A stretch of DNA of 64,000 bases from Lacinutrix venerupis. Its GTDB lineage: Bacteria; Bacteroidota; Bacteroidia; Flavobacteriales; Flavobacteriaceae. Where the stretch lies: contig NZ_RCCH01000005.1 in the NCBI RefSeq assembly GCF_003663945.1, forward strand, positions 248,001 through 312,000, read 5' to 3'. Each line of letters starts with the position of its first letter. Positions within the stretch are counted from its first letter, which is position 1. Made by a program: the position numbers and the translations under genes. Positions 38,762 through 55,422 of the stretch are shown in pieces. The notes under the pieces were generated by a model. That model was given only the letters and a program-made list of their open reading frames with translations. It was not told the DNA's origin and ran no database searches.

Positions 38762-41179
38762 ATGAAAAAAACAATTACATTATCAATTATGAGTTTTTTA
38801 TTTGCGTTTTGTGCTTTTGCACAAGTGGATAGAGAATGTGCTACAATGAAAAATTTGGAGTATAGAAAACAAAATGATCCTCAGCTTGCTCAACGCATGG
38901 AAGACATTGAAACGTTTACAAGACAGAAACTACAACAAATGGATAGTAATAGCCAAAATAAAGTAGTAGGAGATATAATAACATTGCCGGTTGTAATACA
39001 TGTACTGTATAGAAATGCTACCGAGAATATTAGCGTAGCACAAATACAGTCTCAATTAGATGTTTTAAACGAAGATTTTAGAAGAACTAATCCAGATGCA
39101 GATAATACATGGTCACAAGCAGCAGACACTCAAATAGAGTTTTGTCTTGCAACTGTAGATCCTAATGGAAATGCTACTACTGGAATAACAAGAAAATCTA
39201 CAACACGTCGTGATTGGGGAACTAGTGACGACATGAAACGATCTTCTACAGGAGGAATAGATCCTTGGGATACTAGTCAGTATTTAAATATGTGGGTTGT
39301 ACCACAAATGTTAAGTAATGGTGGTACTATTTTGGGTTATGCTCAATTTCCAGGTGGAAGTGCAGCAACAGATGGTGTTGTAATGGGTTATAACTATTTT
39401 GGAAGAGTGGGCGCAGTAAGTGCTCCTTTTGATGGAGGTAGAACAACAACTCACGAAGTAGGTCATTTTTTAAATCTTCGTCATATTTGGGGAGATAGCA
39501 ACTGTGGAAACGATTTTGTAAGCGATACACCAACTCATCAAACCTCTAATGGAGGTTGTCCTGTTGGTCAAGTTTCTTGTGGTTCTACAGATATGGTTCA
39601 AAATTATATGGATTATACTAATGATTCTTGTATGAACTTGTTTACTACAGGACAAAAAAATAGAATGCGTGCAGTATTAGAAGCCGGAGGAGTTAGACGT
39701 TCTTTAGCATTATCAGATAAATGTGGAGCAGTAGCACAACCAACGTGTACAGACGGTATACAAAACGGAGATGAAACTGGAGTAGATTGTGGTGGTTCTT
39801 GTACTCCATGTCAAACAGGTACACAATATTGTGCATCTCAAGGTAATAGTGTAAACGATGAGTATATTTCAAGAGTGCAAGTAGGAAGTATTAATAAATC
39901 TTCTGGAGCACAATTATATTCAGATTTCACAAGTACTTCTACAGATTTAAGTAAAGGTTCAAGTTACACAATTACGGTAACACCAACCTGGACAGGAACA
40001 ACATATAGCGAAGGTTACGCAGCATGGATAGATTATAACAACGATGGAGATTTTACAGATTCTGGAGAACAAATTTTCTCTCTTGCAGCAACGCAGTCTT
40101 CTCCAGTTAGTGGGACATTTACAGTGCCAGCAGGAACTGCAAGTGGAGATAAGCGTTTACGTGTATCTATGAAATATAATGGTATACCAACATCTTGCGA
40201 AACATTCTCGTATGGAGAGGTAGAGGATTATACTGTAAATATAACATCTGGAGGATCAAATCCACCAACAGGATGTACAGGAGCAATTTCATCTTTCCCA
40301 TATAGTGAAAGTTTCGAGTCTAATTTTGGATTATGGACTCAAGGATCTGGAGACGATTTTAATTGGACAAGACAATCTGGGTCTACGCCTTCAAGCAATA
40401 CTGGGCCATCAAGTGCAGCAGCAGGCTCTCAATATGTTTATATGGAATCTTCTTCGCCTAATTATTCTACTAAACGAGCTATTTTAGTTTCTCCATGTTT
40501 TGATTTAACAGGACAAAACCAAGCAACATTTAGTTTTAAATATCACATGTATGGTGCGTCATCAATGGGAAGCTTAAATGTGGCAATAAGCACAAATAAC
40601 GGTTCAACTTGGAGTACTATTTGGACTAGATCTGGAAACCAAGGGAATTCTTGGCAAGATGCTAGTATAGATTTATCTTCTTACGAAGGTAATAATGTTA
40701 GTTTAAGATTTGACGGAACTACAGGAACAACATGGCAAGGAGACATGGCTATAGATGCTATTGGTTTAAGTAATGGAGCTGCCTCGTCTGATAAATGTGC
40801 TGGTGTTTCTCCTTATGTTTCAGGTCAATCATACTCGGTTGGAGACCAAGTAACTTATCAAGGCAGTTTATACGAAAGAACTTCATCTGGATGGATTAAT
40901 TTAGGTGCTTGTGGAACTGCAAGAACAACAGACGAAGGTTTTGTAGAATATTTAGGAGTTAATATTTCAGTCTATCCAAATCCAGTAAAAGGAAACATAC
41001 TGTTTGTTAAATCTAATATAGAAAACTTACCATTTACTATTGTGAATATGTTAGGTCAACAAGTAGCAAAAGGAACTTCGGCTCAAGGTGTTAATGTTGC
41101 AAATCTTGAATCAGGAATGTACATGATTCAGTTTAATGTGAACAATACAACCGAAACAAGAAAGTTTATTAAGCAATAA
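38762..41179 (+). CDS. Secreted M43 (cytophagalysin-like) metalloprotease with GEVED, MAM-like and T9SS sorting domains
   Basis: The 805-residue exoenzyme has a signal peptide (MKKTITLSIMSFLFAFCAFAQ). Its catalytic motif HEVGHFLNLRH (His231, Glu232, His235, His241), followed by WGD and the Met-turn region QNYMDYTNDSCM, places it with the pappalysin/cytophagalysin family. Downstream are a Cys-rich CTDGIQNGDETGVDCGG-type segment, a GEVED domain (ending SYGEVEDYTVN), a MAM-like jelly roll (YSESFESNFGLW, DMAIDAIGLS), and a short module rich in aromatic residues (YSVGDQVTYQGSLYERTSSG) similar to carbohydrate-binding CBM5/12 units. The tail (ISVYPNPVKGN and LESGMYMIQF) is the T9SS type A signal. 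Likely function: extracellular protein breakdown on polysaccharide-rich particles. Confidence 0.93.
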   Translation: MKKTITLSIMSFLFAFCAFAQVDRECATMKNLEYRKQNDPQLAQRMEDIETFTRQKLQQMDSNSQNKVVGDIITLPVVIHVLYRNATENISVAQIQSQLDVLNEDFRRTNPDADNTWSQAADTQIEFCLATVDPNGNATTGITRKSTTRRDWGTSDDMKRSSTGGIDPWDTSQYLNMWVVPQMLSNGGTILGYAQFPGGSAATDGVVMGYNYFGRVGAVSAPFDGGRTTTHEVGHFLNLRHIWGDSNCGNDFVSDTPTHQTSNGGCPVGQVSCGSTDMVQNYMDYTNDSCMNLFTTGQKNRMRAVLEAGGVRRSLALSDKCGAVAQPTCTDGIQNGDETGVDCGGSCTPCQTGTQYCASQGNSVNDEYISRVQVGSINKSSGAQLYSDFTSTSTDLSKGSSYTITVTPTWTGTTYSEGYAAWIDYNNDGDFTDSGEQIFSLAATQSSPVSGTFTVPAGTASGDKRLRVSMKYNGIPTSCETFSYGEVEDYTVNITSGGSNPPTGCTGAISSFPYSESFESNFGLWTQGSGDDFNWTRQSGSTPSSNTGPSSAAAGSQYVYMESSSPNYSTKRAILVSPCFDLTGQNQATFSFKYHMYGASSMGSLNVAISTNNGSTWSTIWTRSGNQGNSWQDASIDLSSYEGNNVSLRFDGTTGTTWQGDMAIDAIGLSNGAASSDKCAGVSPYVSGQSYSVGDQVTYQGSLYERTSSGWINLGACGTARTTDEGFVEYLGVNISVYPNPVKGNILFVKSNIENLPFTIVNMLGQQVAKGTSAQGVNVANLESGMYMIQFNVNNTTETRKFIKQ

Positions 41180-46287: not shown

Positions 46288-47277
46288 TTACGATATTAAT
46301 TTTACAACATCCTTAGCAAAATAACTAGCAATTATATCTGCGCCGGCGCGTTTAATAGCGGTAACCTGTTCCATCATTACAGCGTCGTGGTTAAGCCAAC
46401 CTTTTTCGGCAGCTGCTTTTAGCATAGCATATTCTCCAGAAACTTGATATACTGCAACAGGAACATCGACTTCGTTTTTAATTTCTCGAACAATATCTAA
46501 ATAGCATAAACCTGGTTTAACCATGACGATGTCTGCGCCTTCATCTATATCCATTTCGGTTTCACGAATGGCTTCAAAACGGTTAGCATAATCCATCTGA
46601 TACGTTTTTTTGTCTTTTGGTATTTCTTGTGCATCTACAGGAGCAGAATCTAACGCATCACGAAATGGGCCATAAAAAGCTGATGCATATTTTGCCGAAT
46701 AACTCATGATGCCGGTATCTATAAATCCTTCGTCTTCTAAGGTTTCTCTAATTGCAAGAATTCGCCCATCCATCATATCGCTTGGAGCAACAAAATCTGC
46801 TCCAGCTTGAGCATGAGATAAGCTCATTTCGGCTAAAACTTCAACGGTATCATCATTTACAATTTTACCATTTTCAATAATACCATCATGCCCAAAAGAT
46901 GAATATGGGTCAAGTGCAACATCCGTCATCACCAACATATCTGGACATACGTTTTTAACTGTTTTAATAGCACGTTGCATTAATCCATCTGGATTTAAAG
47001 CTTCGGTTCCTTTATTATCTTTTAAATTATCAGGAACTTTTACAAACAATAAAACCGATTTTAAACCTAGTTTCCAAAGTTCTTTTACTTCAGCTTCTAA
47101 TAAATCTAAACTATAGCGATAATAATTTGGCATAGAGGCAATTTCTTCTTTTATGCCTTTACCTTCAACCACAAAAAGTGGTACTAAAAAATCGTTTGGT
47201 GAAATAATAGTTTCTCTGACTAAACTTCTAATAGCTTTATTTGTTCTTAAGCGTCTGTTTCTTCTAATTGGATACAT
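46288..47277 (-). CDS. hemB: Delta-aminolevulinic acid dehydratase (porphobilinogen synthase)
   Basis: HemB joins two 5-aminolevulinates into porphobilinogen. The start is set at the ATG at 47277 (MYPIRRNRRLRTN); a TTG 9 codons upstream adds unlikely residues. The active-site lysines are in SYSAKYASAFYGPF and DIVMVKPGLCYLD. The zinc-site cysteines of the yeast/E. coli type are replaced: TDVALDPYSSFGHDGI has Ala and Asp, the signature of the Mg2+-dependent class. It starts 55 bases from the divergent helicase gene. First gene met on the minus strand of the tetrapyrrole block; separated from hemF by the helicase. Confidence 0.97.
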   Translation of the reverse strand: MYPIRRNRRLRTNKAIRSLVRETIISPNDFLVPLFVVEGKGIKEEIASMPNYYRYSLDLLEAEVKELWKLGLKSVLLFVKVPDNLKDNKGTEALNPDGLMQRAIKTVKNVCPDMLVMTDVALDPYSSFGHDGIIENGKIVNDDTVEVLAEMSLSHAQAGADFVAPSDMMDGRILAIRETLEDEGFIDTGIMSYSAKYASAFYGPFRDALDSAPVDAQEIPKDKKTYQMDYANRFEAIRETEMDIDEGADIVMVKPGLCYLDIVREIKNEVDVPVAVYQVSGEYAMLKAAAEKGWLNHDAVMMEQVTAIKRAGADIIASYFAKDVVKLIS

Positions 47278-47332
47278 AGTTTTTATTACTTTTATCGAAT
47301 ACAAAGTTAAACATTAAAACCCATTTTTAGAA

Positions 47333-49963
47333 TTGATTGAATCCTTAGATGCTTTAAAATTTATTTTTCCTTGGAGAAGCTACCAGGCAAAACTGCTAAA
47401 GCATTTTGAAAGCCATATGGCAGACAATCATTTTCATGTAATTGCTCCTCCAGGCTCTGGAAAAACTATTTTAGGAATTGAGATTTTTAAACGTTTAGGA
47501 AAGAAAACACTAGTATTGGCACCAACATTAACCATTAGAAATCAATGGAAAGATAGGTTGCAAACTTTTTTTTCTGAAAACAAAAAATTTAATAGTTTTT
47601 CTTTTGATATTAAAGCACCAAGTGACGTTACATTTTCTACCTACCAATCGCTACATGCTTTTTATAAAACATTTGAAGATAAAAAAGATTACTACCAATT
47701 TTTTAAAACCTATGAAATTGAAACGCTTGTTTTAGACGAAGCACACCATTTAAAAAATGCTTGGTGGACGTGCTTAATGGATTTAAAAAATAATAGTGAT
47801 TTCTATATGGTATCGTTAACAGCAACACCGCCTTACGATAGTAGTAGAGCAGAAGTTTCTAAATATTTTACACTTTGTGGCGAGGTAGATGATGAAATTG
47901 CTGTGCCGGATTTGGTTAAAGAAGGCGATTTATGCGCGCACCAAGATTATGTTTATTTTTCTAAACCAGAAGCTGTTGAAATAAATTTTATAGTTGAATT
48001 TAGACAAAAAATAGCCGATTTTAAAGATCAGCTTTTAAAAGATGACAATTTTATAAACTTTCTACAAAATCACCGATATTATAAAAACCCTAATTGGCAT
48101 TTAGATGAGTTGTACGCAAATACCGAGTACTTATCATCTATATTTATAACATTAAATGCTTATGGTTTAACTATTAATGAAAAGAAATTGGAGATTCTTG
48201 GTTTCGAAAAAAATGAAGAGATTAAATTTCCAAATCTTGAATTAGACTGGTTAGAAATTTTGTTTCAGAATATATTAGTTGAAGACAGAGAGCAATTATT
48301 CGAACATGAAACATATTTAAAAAAGCTAGAAAAGCAACTTAGGCTTTTACATGTTTTCGATAAAAAAAAGGTAGACTTTGTAGGTAAAGATTTAATTTAT
48401 AAGTCACTAGCCAATAGTCCAAGAAAACTAAAAAGTATTGTAAGTATTATAAATTCTGAAAGCACTTATTTAAAAGAAAATTTAAGCTGTGTTATTCTTA
48501 CAGATTACATTAGAAAAGAATTTTTAACAACTAAAGATATCACTACTATAAATAAAATAGGAGTGATATCTATTTTCCAATATGTGCGTTGTTATTGTGA
48601 AAATAATAAATCGTTAGCAGTGCTTTCTGGAAGCATTGTTATAATTCATGAATCTGTTTTAGAATGTTTATTTGAAATAGAAAGAAGAGAAGATTTTTTA
48701 ATAAAACCTTTAGAGGTCGATAATTCTTTTGTGCAAATTACACCAAATACAAGTGCTAAAAAATCGATAGTTAGTAGTATTACCAAATTATTTGAAAATG
48801 GTAAAATTAAAGTACTCGTAGGAACAAAATCTTTATTGGGTGAAGGTTGGGATGCGCCTTCTATAAACAGTTTAATTTTGGCATCTTTTGTTGGCTCGTT
48901 TGTATCGTCTAATCAAATGCGAGGTAGAGCAATTAGAACAAATGCTAATATGCCAAATAAAACAGGAAATATATGGCATTTGGCAAGCATAGATCCCACA
49001 CAAACGGATGGAGGAAGAGAGGTTGAAATATTAAAACGCCGTTTTGAAGTCTTTGTTGGTGTTACAGAAAACGATATTCCGTTTATTTCTAATGGCTTTG
49101 AACGTTTATATTTTCCAGACAATATTCTACCAGAACAGATTGATGGATTAAATAAGCATACTCTAAATCAAGCAAAGCAAAGAAATAATGTTATTGCTAA
49201 ATGGGAAAACAGTATTGGAAGCGGCACAAAATTAACGAGACAATTAAAATTATTTCATTTTGGTAAAATGCCTTTTAAAAAGCAAAAACAGATATATTAT
49301 TTTGATGCATTACGCTTTTTTATAGCAGAAATTATTATTGCATTTATGTTGTTTTATGTAGAATTTGTGGTTTATAGTTTTAAACTTATTTTACAAAAAG
49401 GTGCTCTTTATTTTATTTATTCTCTACTAGTAGCTCTTTTTTTAACCTTTGGCTATAAGTTATACAAAGCATTTAAGTTGTATTTACGTTATGGTTTTCT
49501 ATATAAAAAAATTAAAAAAATGGGACAGACGGTTTTAGATACTTTAAACGATTTAAAACTTCTTAACACTAACATTAATAATGTTTATGTAACCTCTCAG
49601 ATTTATGGCAGAGGCGATGTTGTTTGTAATTTAGTAGGAGCAAACGCTTTAGAAAATTCTATTTTTAATAAAGCACTTACTCAGCTATTAGAACCTATAA
49701 ATTCTCCACGCTATTTAATTGTGAAAACAAATTTATTTAGAAAAAAATTAGATGTAGAAAGTTTTTATTCTGTTCCAGATGTTTTTGGAGATAAAAAAGA
49801 AAATGCATTATTATTTCAAAAAAACTGGAGAAAATATCTAGGTCGAAATAAGCTAATTTACACGAGACGATTTGATGGTAGAAAACTCTTATTAAAAGCA
49901 AGATTGTATAATGTTTATAATGCTTTTACTAAGAAAACTAAAGAGGTTTTAGTTTGGAAGTAG
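47333..49963 (+). CDS. DEAH-box superfamily II helicase with C-terminal membrane helices
   Basis: The 876-residue protein has a Q-motif-like FPWRSYQAKLL, Walker A APPGSGKT (residues 39-46), LVLAPTLTIRNQWKDRL (Ia), LVLDEAHHLKN (DEAH 135-138), SLTATPP (161-167), a VLVGTKSLLGEGWDAPSIN segment (V) and QMRGRAIRT (528-536, VI), so both RecA lobes are complete. After about residue 655 it carries two hydrophobic helices (AEIIIAFMLFYVEFVVY; FIYSLLVALFLTFGYKL) and a C-terminal region of about 150 residues that I do not recognise. The layout resembles the ResIII class found in defence and repair, but no methyltransferase or nuclease domain is seen. Translation must start at the TTG at 47333, because the first ATG is after the Q motif. 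Confidence 0.88.
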   Translation: MIESLDALKFIFPWRSYQAKLLKHFESHMADNHFHVIAPPGSGKTILGIEIFKRLGKKTLVLAPTLTIRNQWKDRLQTFFSENKKFNSFSFDIKAPSDVTFSTYQSLHAFYKTFEDKKDYYQFFKTYEIETLVLDEAHHLKNAWWTCLMDLKNNSDFYMVSLTATPPYDSSRAEVSKYFTLCGEVDDEIAVPDLVKEGDLCAHQDYVYFSKPEAVEINFIVEFRQKIADFKDQLLKDDNFINFLQNHRYYKNPNWHLDELYANTEYLSSIFITLNAYGLTINEKKLEILGFEKNEEIKFPNLELDWLEILFQNILVEDREQLFEHETYLKKLEKQLRLLHVFDKKKVDFVGKDLIYKSLANSPRKLKSIVSIINSESTYLKENLSCVILTDYIRKEFLTTKDITTINKIGVISIFQYVRCYCENNKSLAVLSGSIVIIHESVLECLFEIERREDFLIKPLEVDNSFVQITPNTSAKKSIVSSITKLFENGKIKVLVGTKSLLGEGWDAPSINSLILASFVGSFVSSNQMRGRAIRTNANMPNKTGNIWHLASIDPTQTDGGREVEILKRRFEVFVGVTENDIPFISNGFERLYFPDNILPEQIDGLNKHTLNQAKQRNNVIAKWENSIGSGTKLTRQLKLFHFGKMPFKKQKQIYYFDALRFFIAEIIIAFMLFYVEFVVYSFKLILQKGALYFIYSLLVALFLTFGYKLYKAFKLYLRYGFLYKKIKKMGQTVLDTLNDLKLLNTNINNVYVTSQIYGRGDVVCNLVGANALENSIFNKALTQLLEPINSPRYLIVKTNLFRKKLDVESFYSVPDVFGDKKENALLFQKNWRKYLGRNKLIYTRRFDGRKLLLKARLYNVYNAFTKKTKEVLVWK

Positions 49964-49965
49964 CT

Positions 49966-50349
49966 TTAAGCAAAACCTAAGTAATACCATTGCTTATCTT
50001 CTTTTACAAAAGCAGATTTTTCATGTATAACATCTACTTTTCCATTTTCGTAAAAATAAGCATTAAAGGTAACGGTACCTTTGTTGTGGCTTTTTAAACC
50101 TGTTGTTGTATCTAGAATTTCTAATTTAATCCATTGCACAGATTTTGCCCATTTTACAATGGCTTGCTTTTCTTTTATAGGTCTTGTAGATTTATGGTGC
50201 GTTTGCATTAAATAATCGCCATTTGCTAATACAAAAGCACTGTAACGAGACCGCATTAATTGTTCGGCAGTTTCGGTTTTTCCATTATTTAAATGAAATA
50301 CTTCGCAGCAAGCTTTATAGCTTTTATTATTTCCGCAGTAGCAATTCAT
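49966..50349 (-). CDS. YchJ/UPF0225 protein with SEC-C zinc motif
   Basis: The 127-residue protein begins CYCGNNKSYKACCEVFH, the SEC-C zinc-binding motif (CxCGxxxxxxxCC), followed by an NTF2-like half with ETAEQLMRSRYSAFVLANGDYLMQTHHKSTRP and WYYLGFA at the end. The whole is the YchJ family. Function unknown, though SEC-C motifs contact SecB in SecA. Its start abuts hemF: only one base separates the two. Confidence 0.93.
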   Translation of the reverse strand: MNCYCGNNKSYKACCEVFHLNNGKTETAEQLMRSRYSAFVLANGDYLMQTHHKSTRPIKEKQAIVKWAKSVQWIKLEILDTTTGLKSHNKGTVTFNAYFYENGKVDVIHEKSAFVKEDKQWYYLGFA

Positions 50350-50350
50350 A

Positions 50351-51253
50351 TTACACCCAATCTACAGGATTTTTTAATACTTTAATTAGTTTTTCTTCTT
50401 CGCTACCAGGTTCTGGATTATGGTCGTAAACCCATTGAACGTGCGGAGGCAAACTCATTAAAATACTTTCTATTCTACCATTTGTTTTTAAACCGAAAAG
50501 CGTGCCTTTGTCGTGTACCAAATTAAATTCTACATAGCGACCACGACGAATTTCTTGCCAGTCGCGTTGTGATTTGGTGAATGGTAAATCTTTTCTTTTT
50601 TCCATTATAGGAAGATATGCCGAAATGAAACTGTTACCAACTTCTGTTACAAAATCGTACCAGTTTTGCATGTTCATATCATTTGAAGCTTTACAATAAT
50701 CGAAAAATAAACCACCAACACCGCGACCTTCGTTTCTATGAGTATTATAAAAATACTCGTCGCAACGTGCTTTGTATTTAGGGTAGAATTCTGGATTGTG
50801 TTTGTCGCACGCTGTTTTACAGGTTTGGTGAAAGTGTTTCGCATCTTCTTCAAACAGATAGTAAGGTGTTAAATCTTGACCGCCACCAAACCATTGGTCT
50901 ACAATATTACCGTCTTGATCATACATTTCGAAATAACGCCAATTTGCATGAACGGTTGGAACCATTGGATTTTTTGGGTGTATAACTAAACTTAATCCGC
51001 AGGCAAAAAAATTGGCATCTTCTACACCAAAATATTTTTGCATAGAGTCTGGCAATTTACCATGTACACCAGAGATATTTACACCACCTTTTTCTATAAC
51101 ATTACCGTTTTCAATTACTCTGGTTCTTCCGCCACCACCTTCAGGACGTTTCCAAATATCTTCTTGAAATTTGGCTTTACCGTCTATGGTTTCAAAAGCG
51201 GCAGTAATAGTGTCTTGTAATTCGTGTATGTAGTTAAAGAATTTATCTTTCAT
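50351..51253 (-). CDS. hemF: Oxygen-dependent coproporphyrinogen III oxidase
   Basis: HemF decarboxylates two propionates of coproporphyrinogen III to vinyl groups using O2. The 300-residue protein shows the family sequence: EDIWKRPEGGGGRTRVIENGNV split by a loop, VHPKNPMVPTVHANWRYFEM, WFGGGQDLTPYYLFEEDAKHFH, and GRGVGGLFFDYCKAS, then RRGRYVEFNLVHDKGTLFGLKTNGRIESILMSLPP. All conserved residues are present. An O2-dependent enzyme indicates an aerobic lifestyle. It lies in a tight minus-strand run with YchJ, GNAT and EI24 genes. Confidence 0.98.
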   Translation of the reverse strand: MKDKFFNYIHELQDTITAAFETIDGKAKFQEDIWKRPEGGGGRTRVIENGNVIEKGGVNISGVHGKLPDSMQKYFGVEDANFFACGLSLVIHPKNPMVPTVHANWRYFEMYDQDGNIVDQWFGGGQDLTPYYLFEEDAKHFHQTCKTACDKHNPEFYPKYKARCDEYFYNTHRNEGRGVGGLFFDYCKASNDMNMQNWYDFVTEVGNSFISAYLPIMEKRKDLPFTKSQRDWQEIRRGRYVEFNLVHDKGTLFGLKTNGRIESILMSLPPHVQWVYDHNPEPGSEEEKLIKVLKNPVDWV

Positions 51254-53838: not shown

Positions 53839-55422
53839 CTATATATAATATTCGTTTACCAACTCAATAACACTTTCTAAGGTTGGAACTTTTGCTACTC
53901 TAACGTCTTTAAAGTAAAGCTTCGCTTCTTTTGCTGTAGAGTCTCCAATACAAAAAGCAATCATGTTATCTTTTACTGTGTTTTCTTGTTTAAAACTTTT
54001 TATTGTAGATGGACTGTAAAACATTACACCTTCTACAGAATCGCTAATTTTAACACTGTCTAATTTTGTTTGGTAAGCTTCAATTTCTTTTACATTAATA
54101 TTGTTTTCATTAAGTATGTTTGGTAAATCGTCTAACCTTAAATCGCTACAGAAATACGTAGCTTCTGTACCATCCATAAACTCAACTAAATATTCTGCTA
54201 ATTTTTTAGCATTATTCTCGCTATGTTTTACCTTACCAATTCTTTTTTCTACCATGCGTTTTGTTCTACGTCCAACACAGTAAATGTTTTTAAATTGTAA
54301 TTCTATAGGAGAAAAGTTAGTAAGTAGTGCCTCAACAGCATTTTTACTTGTAATTATTACGTTTTCTATTTCGTTTTTTAATAGTCTTGGAGCTATTCTG
54401 TTTAAACTTATTTTTACAAAATCACTGCTGTCTGAATTTACTTTTTCGTTAAACAACAAGCGTTGATCTTCTGTAAATGATTTTGTAGAATAAACATTTA
54501 TTGGTTTGGTAGATTGTTTAATGTTATCCATTAAACGTTTTCCGCCTTTTTCTATAACATAATCTGCACACCATTGTGCCATGTCGCTATGCTGCCCTAA
54601 TGGCTTAACACGTTGAACGCTTATTTTTTTAGTTCCGTTTGGGCTTAATAAAACACCTTCAAAATTTACTTCGTCGTCTTTTATGTAGCATAAAGCGCCA
54701 ATAGGAGCTGTGCAACCACCTTCTAATCGGTTTAAAAATTCACGTTCTATTTGTACGCAAATTTGTGTTTCTTCATGATTAATTTCTGCTAAAATAGCTC
54801 TTGTTTCTTCATCTTCTTCAAGAGCAACAGTTATTATAGCACCTTGTCCTGGAGCAGGAACCATCCATTCTAAATTGTCTGAATTTTCAGGACGAACATT
54901 TAAACGGCCAAGTCCAGCTGCTGCAAAAATGGCTCCATTCCAATGTTTTGTTTCTTCTAATTTCTGTAAGCGAGTTGCTACATTTCCACGAATATCTTCG
55001 ATAGTATGTGTAGGGTAGCGGTTTAACCATTGTGCTTTTCGGCGTAAACTACTTGTTGCTAATACTGCATTTTTTGCGCCTAAAAACTCTTCGGTACCTT
55101 TAAATACTAAAGTGTCTCGAACGTTTCCTCGTTTCATAACTGCAGCTTGTACAATTCCTTTTGGTAAAACGGTTGGTACATCTTTTAAAGAATGTACGGC
55201 AATGTCTATATCTCCATTAAGCATTGCAATATCTAAAGTTCTGGTAAAAATTCCAGTAATACCAAGCTCGTATAATGGTTTGTCTAAAACAATATCACCT
55301 GTAGATTTTATTGGAACAATTACTGCTTTATGTCCTAAATGTTCTAATTGTTGTTTTACAGCGTTGGCTTGATATAGCGCTAACTCACTTTCGCGAGTTC
55401 CAATTCTTATAATTTTAGACAT
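53839..55422 (-). CDS. hemC: Fused hydroxymethylbilane synthase/uroporphyrinogen-III synthase (HemC-HemD)
   Basis: The 527-residue protein joins two consecutive enzymes. Residues 1 to about 300 are HemC: MSKIIRIGTRESELALYQA, HSLKDVPT, TSSLRRKAQW and RLEGGCTAPIGALC, whose Cys237 carries the dipyrromethane cofactor. Residues from about 310 are HemD: INVYSTKSFTEDQRLLF, NRIAPRLLKNEIENVIITSKNAVEAL, GEATYFCSDLRLDDL-like strands (TEATYFCSDLRLDDLPN) and VEGVMFYSPSTIKSF. There is no linker stop, so the unstable hydroxymethylbilane can be handed from site to site. Bacteroidota hemD is often fused or hard to annotate. The start overlaps hemA by 8 bases. Confidence 0.96.
   Translation of the reverse strand: MSKIIRIGTRESELALYQANAVKQQLEHLGHKAVIVPIKSTGDIVLDKPLYELGITGIFTRTLDIAMLNGDIDIAVHSLKDVPTVLPKGIVQAAVMKRGNVRDTLVFKGTEEFLGAKNAVLATSSLRRKAQWLNRYPTHTIEDIRGNVATRLQKLEETKHWNGAIFAAAGLGRLNVRPENSDNLEWMVPAPGQGAIITVALEEDEETRAILAEINHEETQICVQIEREFLNRLEGGCTAPIGALCYIKDDEVNFEGVLLSPNGTKKISVQRVKPLGQHSDMAQWCADYVIEKGGKRLMDNIKQSTKPINVYSTKSFTEDQRLLFNEKVNSDSSDFVKISLNRIAPRLLKNEIENVIITSKNAVEALLTNFSPIELQFKNIYCVGRRTKRMVEKRIGKVKHSENNAKKLAEYLVEFMDGTEATYFCSDLRLDDLPNILNENNINVKEIEAYQTKLDSVKISDSVEGVMFYSPSTIKSFKQENTVKDNMIAFCIGDSTAKEAKLYFKDVRVAKVPTLESVIELVNEYYI

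Follow-up and report, generated by a model that had tools for sequence, protein, structure and literature searches.

The window analyzed here, a stretch of 64,000 nucleotides from Lacinutrix venerupis, carries on its forward strand an open reading frame (47333..49963, stop included) that encodes a protein of 876 amino acids and starts with a TTG codon. The frame is open throughout, in a stretch whose opposite strand is rich in stops; its TTG is the position at which aligned relatives begin, and its end is shared with them as well. The gene lies among haem synthesis genes transcribed from the other strand. Upstream is the divergent hemB gene (porphobilinogen synthase; 46288..47304 on the minus strand for the ORF as listed), whose real start is likely the ATG at 47275-47277, approximately 55 bases from the helicase TTG. 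Downstream is a convergent ychJ-like gene (49966..50349, minus strand), followed by hemF (50351-51253, minus strand). Being divergent across the gap at 47278-47332, the helicase gene and hemB may share a short promoter region. Elsewhere in the window, a single ORF with porphobilinogen deaminase and uroporphyrinogen-III synthase domains (53839-55422, minus strand) corresponds to a HemC-HemD fusion, and another (38762-41179, plus strand) resembles a secreted metalloprotease with a type IX secretion sorting tail.

Architecture of the helicase

A scan of genome contigs identified 203 places that encode some relative of this protein, and the best 80 of these were used. Once L023 (whose contig is shared with L015), L056 and L079 (whose frames are broken) and L078 (in which no intact frame was found) had been left out, the alignment consisted of the window protein and 76 intact relatives (77 rows). 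Pfam recognizes ResIII, DEAD and Helicase_C domains in the window protein, and the helicase motifs can be read directly from its sequence: Walker A at residues 38-45 (47444-47467) and DEAH at 135-138 (47735-47746), both within the first RecA lobe on the plus strand, TAT at 163-165, and motif VI, QMRGRAIR, at 528-535 (48914-48937, plus strand), within the second. Residues of these motifs are mostly invariant across the 77 aligned sequences.

AlphaFold2, run on the 77-row alignment, generated a model with a pLDDT of 86.7 and a pTM of 0.82, in which lobe 1, a helical insert (approximately residues 211-384), lobe 2, a linker, two long helices and a folded domain follow one another. RecA lobe 1 (residues 1-210, 47333..47962, plus strand) is delimited by the ResIII/DEAD matches, the invariant motif columns and the model, and RecA lobe 2 (residues 385-600, 48485..49132, plus strand) by Helicase_C and its own invariant columns. 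The insert between them (residues 211-384, 47963..48484, plus strand), whose boundaries are taken from the model, is built of helices between residues 214 and 383 and displays lower identity than the lobes. With a Walker A motif, a DExH box, motif III, the arginines of motif VI and two RecA lobes, the protein is an SF2 helicase. The original prediction, which had described a complete two-lobe DEAH helicase of this superfamily, is thus borne out by the Pfam domains, the near-invariant motifs and the model; the observation on the sequence was right and the family is real. Motor, hairpin and tail in this fixed order are a well-supported description of its members.

The hydrophobic hairpin and the C-terminal domain

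Two hydrophobic helices follow the motor, as had been noticed from the sequence. Helix 1 covers residues 648-682 (49274..49378, plus strand) and helix 2 residues 689-721 (49397..49495, plus strand); both are defined by hydropathy and by the AlphaFold2 model, where they appear as helices of 35 and 33 residues in a region of lower confidence (blocks of approximately 58-73). The most hydrophobic 19-residue segments, with Kyte-Doolittle (KD) maxima of 2.40 and 1.79, start at residues 667 and 691 and are separated by a loop of 5 residues. Mean KD values for the two helices (1.14 and 1.73) are the highest among all segments of the protein and their identity (0.26-0.27, versus 0.55-0.59 for the lobes) is the lowest, indicating that the sequence of the hairpin drifts while its hydrophobicity persists. 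Both segments reach a KD of at least 1.6 in 44 of the 77 family members and at least 1.2 in 68; at least one reaches 1.6 in 70, and one falls below 1.2 in nine. Values of up to 3.2 were measured in Clostridia. No pair of segments at or above 1.6 was found in any of 20 further Helicase_C proteins encoded by this genome, a control set in which seven of the longest proteins were partial, ending at the edges of the fetched stretch. The helicase core itself contains one segment of at least 1.6 in 39 of the 77 members, and it is thus the adjacent pair, rather than a lone hydrophobic segment, that is diagnostic.

Net charges of the window protein are +3 before the hairpin, +1 in the loop and +4 after it, and the family means follow the same order (+1.5, +0.9 and +2.8). 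As read from the sequence, these charges match the positive-inside rule for a hairpin whose two ends would both be cytoplasmic. The hairpin is not indispensable in every lineage, since a relative from Tritonibacter mobilis (L020:11983-14319, 778 amino acids), in which the KD maximum beyond the lobes is 0.73, retains the tail but not the hairpin and represents a natural anchor-free form. The existence of this relative, the low confidence of the model across the hairpin and the single hydrophobic segments found within the cores would also be expected if the two segments were buried helices of a soluble protein. We consider this very improbable: the model places two long helices side by side, their hydrophobicity is kept where identity is at its lowest and reaches a KD of 3.2 in Clostridia, the flanks are positive, and the pair is absent from the 20 control helicases. 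Hydropathy, charge and the model together make a membrane anchor likely in the window protein, though it is not universal in the family.

The C-terminal domain (residues 722-876, 49496..49960, plus strand) is conserved and comprises 155 residues that are folded in the model of the whole protein, so that the estimate of about 150 residues made in the original prediction was correct; modelled alone, the domain reaches a pLDDT of 88.4. Its fold, which had been described as one of no known kind, found no useful match in Pfam, among solved structures or among viral folds. In sequence searches against the PDB there was no match at E 10, and Foldseek searches of the PDB and BFVD gave none at E 0.001. 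The best VIA-align match, to Ohr proteins, has a Z of 4.0 over 65 residues; a kinship with OsmC/Ohr was considered and rejected on these values, which we take to reflect a common arrangement. In the same comparison with solved domains, where a tail of the RIG-I type was also in question, Z 4.0 was the best value, absence from such a list being a weak test. The tail also gave Pfam matches, the best at 0.0039 and GT-D in 2 of 47, which we regard as chance hits. The domain is therefore described by none of the libraries searched here, a statement whose scope is Pfam, PDB and BFVD.

The tail alignment used 47 of the 77 tails. Conserved residues of the domain are E, R, Y, P, T, R, G and R, and cysteines stand out at only two positions of the protein, 201 and 765, the latter in 45 of 77 sequences. 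A profile of the tail matched in 14 of 395 genomes of the phylum, Bacteroidota, in every case (14/14) as the last part of a frame 876-940 amino acids long, and no stand-alone tail domain was seen among these matches. In 398 genomes of the phylum to which the Roseburia relative (L066) belongs there were three matches, one of them weak (E 8e-4, 63 positions, in a frame of 267 amino acids). Even if the role of the helicase turns out to be ordinary, the tail domain merits a family entry.

Every segment of the protein, hairpin and tail included, is under purifying selection. In a Nei-Gojobori comparison of the window protein with L002, dN/dS values were 0.05/1.21 for lobe 1, 0.19/1.23 for the insert, 0.11/1.07 for lobe 2, 0.22/1.20 for the hairpin and 0.14/1.44 for the tail; the silent sites are near saturation, and these ratios are therefore rough.

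Distribution and genomic neighbourhood

Helicases of this shape had been called rare, and the genome counts agree. A full-length copy is present in 8 of 60 related genomes (that of the window included), among them 5 of the 13 from its own genus; this search gave 11 matches in all, and the three others cover lobe 1 only. In Flavobacteriaceae, 26 of 199 genomes hold the gene, one copy being split and one fragmentary, and matches in the remainder of the 48 genomes detected are weak and restricted to lobe 1. Among the best 80 of the 203 places, holders belong to Bacteroidota, Bacillota, Pseudomonadota, Verrucomicrobiota, Planctomycetota, Omnitrophota, Elusimicrobiota and others, as well as to Lokiarchaeota and Thorarchaeota bins. 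The three Asgard bins (L050, L054 and L100) cluster together in the tree with good support, which speaks against an origin from stray contigs.

In a quick tree of the 77 rows, the 11 phylum labels require 12 changes against a minimum of 10, Bacteroidota and Bacillota requiring two each. The tree thus follows phyla and is more orderly than would be expected for a freely exchanged defence gene, with the reservation that bin labels may err and that support is uneven. Phage and plasmid records almost never contain the helicase. Only 7 of 72,556 plasmid records match, three of them over at least 80% of the query, and a plasmid origin was rejected on this count; the sole annotated intact plasmid relative, from Paenibacillus, is labelled 'DEAD/DEAH box helicase family protein'. 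A copy on a Rhodovulum plasmid (L021:8848-11183) is annotated as two separate genes and appears broken. The viral scan gave two matches, both to lobe 1. Full-length copies occur in two records of a phage collection (L104 and L105), but these are UNVERIFIED 'Bacteriophage sp.' faecal scaffolds that look bacterial; they are probably misfiled, since ORFs near the L105 copy read, by eye, as a bacterial ABC transporter. A phage origin was rejected as well. Base composition likewise gave no reason to consider the gene foreign (GC of 0.287, versus 0.309 for the window and a range of 0.277-0.367 for its neighbours).

When the window and 30 other loci were compared, the helicase was located between hemB and hemF in 17 of the 31, and hemF was present within the fetched stretch in 21. 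The 8 kb at hemF were also examined in 18 genomes from the genus and family that do not have the gene; hemB was found there in 17, and a helicase match in none. The gap between the hemB and ychJ matches measures 11-82 bases in seven of the eight own-genus genomes of this kind and approximately 800 in the eighth; relatives thus display a clean empty site in the hem cluster. Over the 17 loci, helicase distances track the combined distances of HemB and HemF (Mantel r 0.77, with none of 2000 permutations as high), while the two trees disagree in places (L025, L029). This pattern fits a gene that has long resided at a single site and was lost repeatedly, and exchange through the conserved flanks is compatible with it as well. 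A link to haem synthesis was considered and rejected: the gene is transcribed from the other strand, close relatives lack it cleanly, and in other lineages it is located elsewhere, with no hem gene recurring beside it. Its position among hem genes had indeed been described as one with no evident link.

Across 90 loci, 52 clusters of neighbours recur in at least three, and the common ones correspond to the Flavobacteriaceae hem locus and, at distances that vary, to general families (ABC ATPases, response regulators and kinases, as named by eye). Outside the hem locus, none of the 90 loci has a recurring neighbour linked to defence or competence, the Pfam families among immediate neighbours are mixed, and at 28 of 65 intact loci neither side has a gene on the same strand within 100 bases. 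The helicase is thus a scarce single gene with no fixed partner.

These data bear on the suggestion that the protein takes part in defence against the entry of phage DNA, as a single-gene system in which a membrane-tethered helicase would sense or block DNA entering the cell. A patchy distribution in genus, family and phylum and a reach as broad as Asgard archaea would suit such a role, and a position at the membrane would be favourable for the interception of entering DNA. It was also proposed that homologues be sought in defence islands. We scanned neighbours with PADLOC 2.0.0, using 125 immediate neighbours (of 131 near genes, 128 were shorter than 900 amino acids, and three of these were apparently spurious overlapping frames) and 96 of 100 distant ones. 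At E 1e-15 the immediate neighbours gave at most 9 matches to 8 models; the distant ones matched 26 models, with GajB models, each matched by one member, accounting for many of these. The figures count matches and models rather than distinct proteins. Distant neighbours are thus at least as rich in PADLOC matches, and no enrichment is visible near the helicase. The window protein itself displays no strong match to a PADLOC 2.0.0 defence model; its matches are weak and of helicase type, the best of them (E 1.7e-4), to HmaA, covering part of lobe 1. With a chromosomal site that is fixed in Flavobacteriaceae, a tree that follows phyla and a near absence from phages and plasmids, neither the defence islands nor the defence role found support, and we regard the latter as unlikely.

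DNA uptake had been proposed too. The protein would then be a helper akin to ComFA, a membrane ATPase pulling transforming DNA inward. Every one of the 26 bacterial holders tested has ComEC, but so do all 10 bacterial controls, and its presence in holders therefore says little. ComEC was absent from the three Asgard holders tested, which makes a duty in transformation only unlikely for the family as a whole; most relatives of the bacterium do not carry the helicase gene, and no competence gene recurs nearby. ComFA carries a conserved metal-binding cysteine motif, whereas a conserved cysteine run is absent from the alignments of the present family, and neither Pfam nor NCBIfam gave a ComFA match for the window protein. 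PMC9005727 describes ComFA as a membrane-associated DNA-dependent ATPase that is absent from Gram-negative species; as a helicase-type ATPase linked to the membrane, ComFA would resemble the family here. Taken together, a role as an uptake helper appears distinctly improbable.

Relation to known helicases and a possible role

The nearest solved relatives by sequence are XPB/RAD25 proteins (E 4e-16). Comparison of the whole model using VIA-align gave a Z of 18.0 with XPB-Bax1-DNA (rmsd 4.0, 369 aligned residues) and of 16.7 with Hef (rmsd 6.4, 396 aligned), and Foldseek ranked LGP2, RIG-I and XPB first, with Hef and FANCM near the top. All five are motors that track along duplexes. XPB/Rad25, as in archaeal XPB-Bax1 and the XPB of TFIIH, is the best PDB match and shares the two-lobe SF2 motor, but the present family differs by its tail, its long helical insert and its membrane hairpin, and scores against NCBIfam models fall well short of the cut-offs (XPB, 53.6 versus 610; rad25, 26.9 versus 328.7). 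The same is true for Hef (32.3 versus 610), and the window protein is far below the cut-off of the UvrB model. A helical insert accompanies the lobes in the motors of Hef/FANCM and RIG-I/LGP2/MDA5, as it does here; in contrast to those proteins, a Pfam scan of the window protein yields neither a CARD nor a nuclease domain. T4 UvsW is also an SF2 motor, to which lobe 1 aligns with a Z of 16.2 (162 residues, rmsd 2.6); a second UvsW entry, 2oca, gave a Z of 15.2 with an rmsd of 19.0 over 331 residues. UvsW is not known to carry a membrane hairpin or a tail of this kind.

The YprA-family helicases of defence systems (DISARM, Dpd, Druantia and ARMADA) are, like the present family, prokaryotic SF2 helicases. 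They differ in that the word 'transmembrane' is absent from the main text of the preprint that deals with them (PMC12458937), and in that the PADLOC matches of the window protein are no more than weak and general. A search of the open-licence literature, which is weak evidence of absence, returned no description of a helicase of this build.

RNA turnover, the third of the roles proposed, would make the protein a membrane-tethered RNA helicase in decay or processing, comparable to the helicases of degradosomes. The RNA-tracking LGP2 and RIG-I are the top Foldseek matches of the whole model, so that RNA could be a substrate; RNA decay is also reported to be linked to the membrane in several bacteria. 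However, the DNA-linked XPB, Hef and UvsW are closest by sequence and by VIA-align Z, and the scarcity of the gene makes a core decay factor unlikely. We judge a role in RNA turnover to be rather unlikely.

Our preferred reading, which we put forward tentatively, is that of a stand-alone, membrane-tethered SF2 duplex translocase of the XPB/Hef type whose tail would bind a substrate or a partner. The two RecA-like lobes would form the motor and would use ATP to travel along, or to open, a nucleic-acid duplex. The two hydrophobic helices would span the inner membrane as a tight hairpin, with the motor and the tail domain both remaining in the cytoplasm. The tail, through its conserved residues, would most likely bind either the substrate (an end, a junction or a phosphate) or a partner in the membrane, which would put the motor where nucleic acid meets the membrane; its role is a guess, since the domain has no known fold relative. 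The most likely function of such a protein would be to maintain, or to clear away, under certain conditions, double-stranded DNA located at the membrane, be it stalled, segregating or newly entered. If a helicase were anchored through membrane helices of its own, a DNA or RNA motor would be fixed to the inner surface of the cell, a site where DNA that enters, leaves or segregates is handled, as is much of RNA decay.

A bolder version of this translocase would be a prokaryotic duplex sensor fixed to the inner membrane, RIG-I/FANCM-like in outline, whose tail of new fold would read ends or junctions of entering or resident nucleic acid; we hold it to be distinctly doubtful. As the family spans bacteria and Asgard archaea, carries a tail that has not been described, and includes variants with and without the anchor, its role is directly testable.
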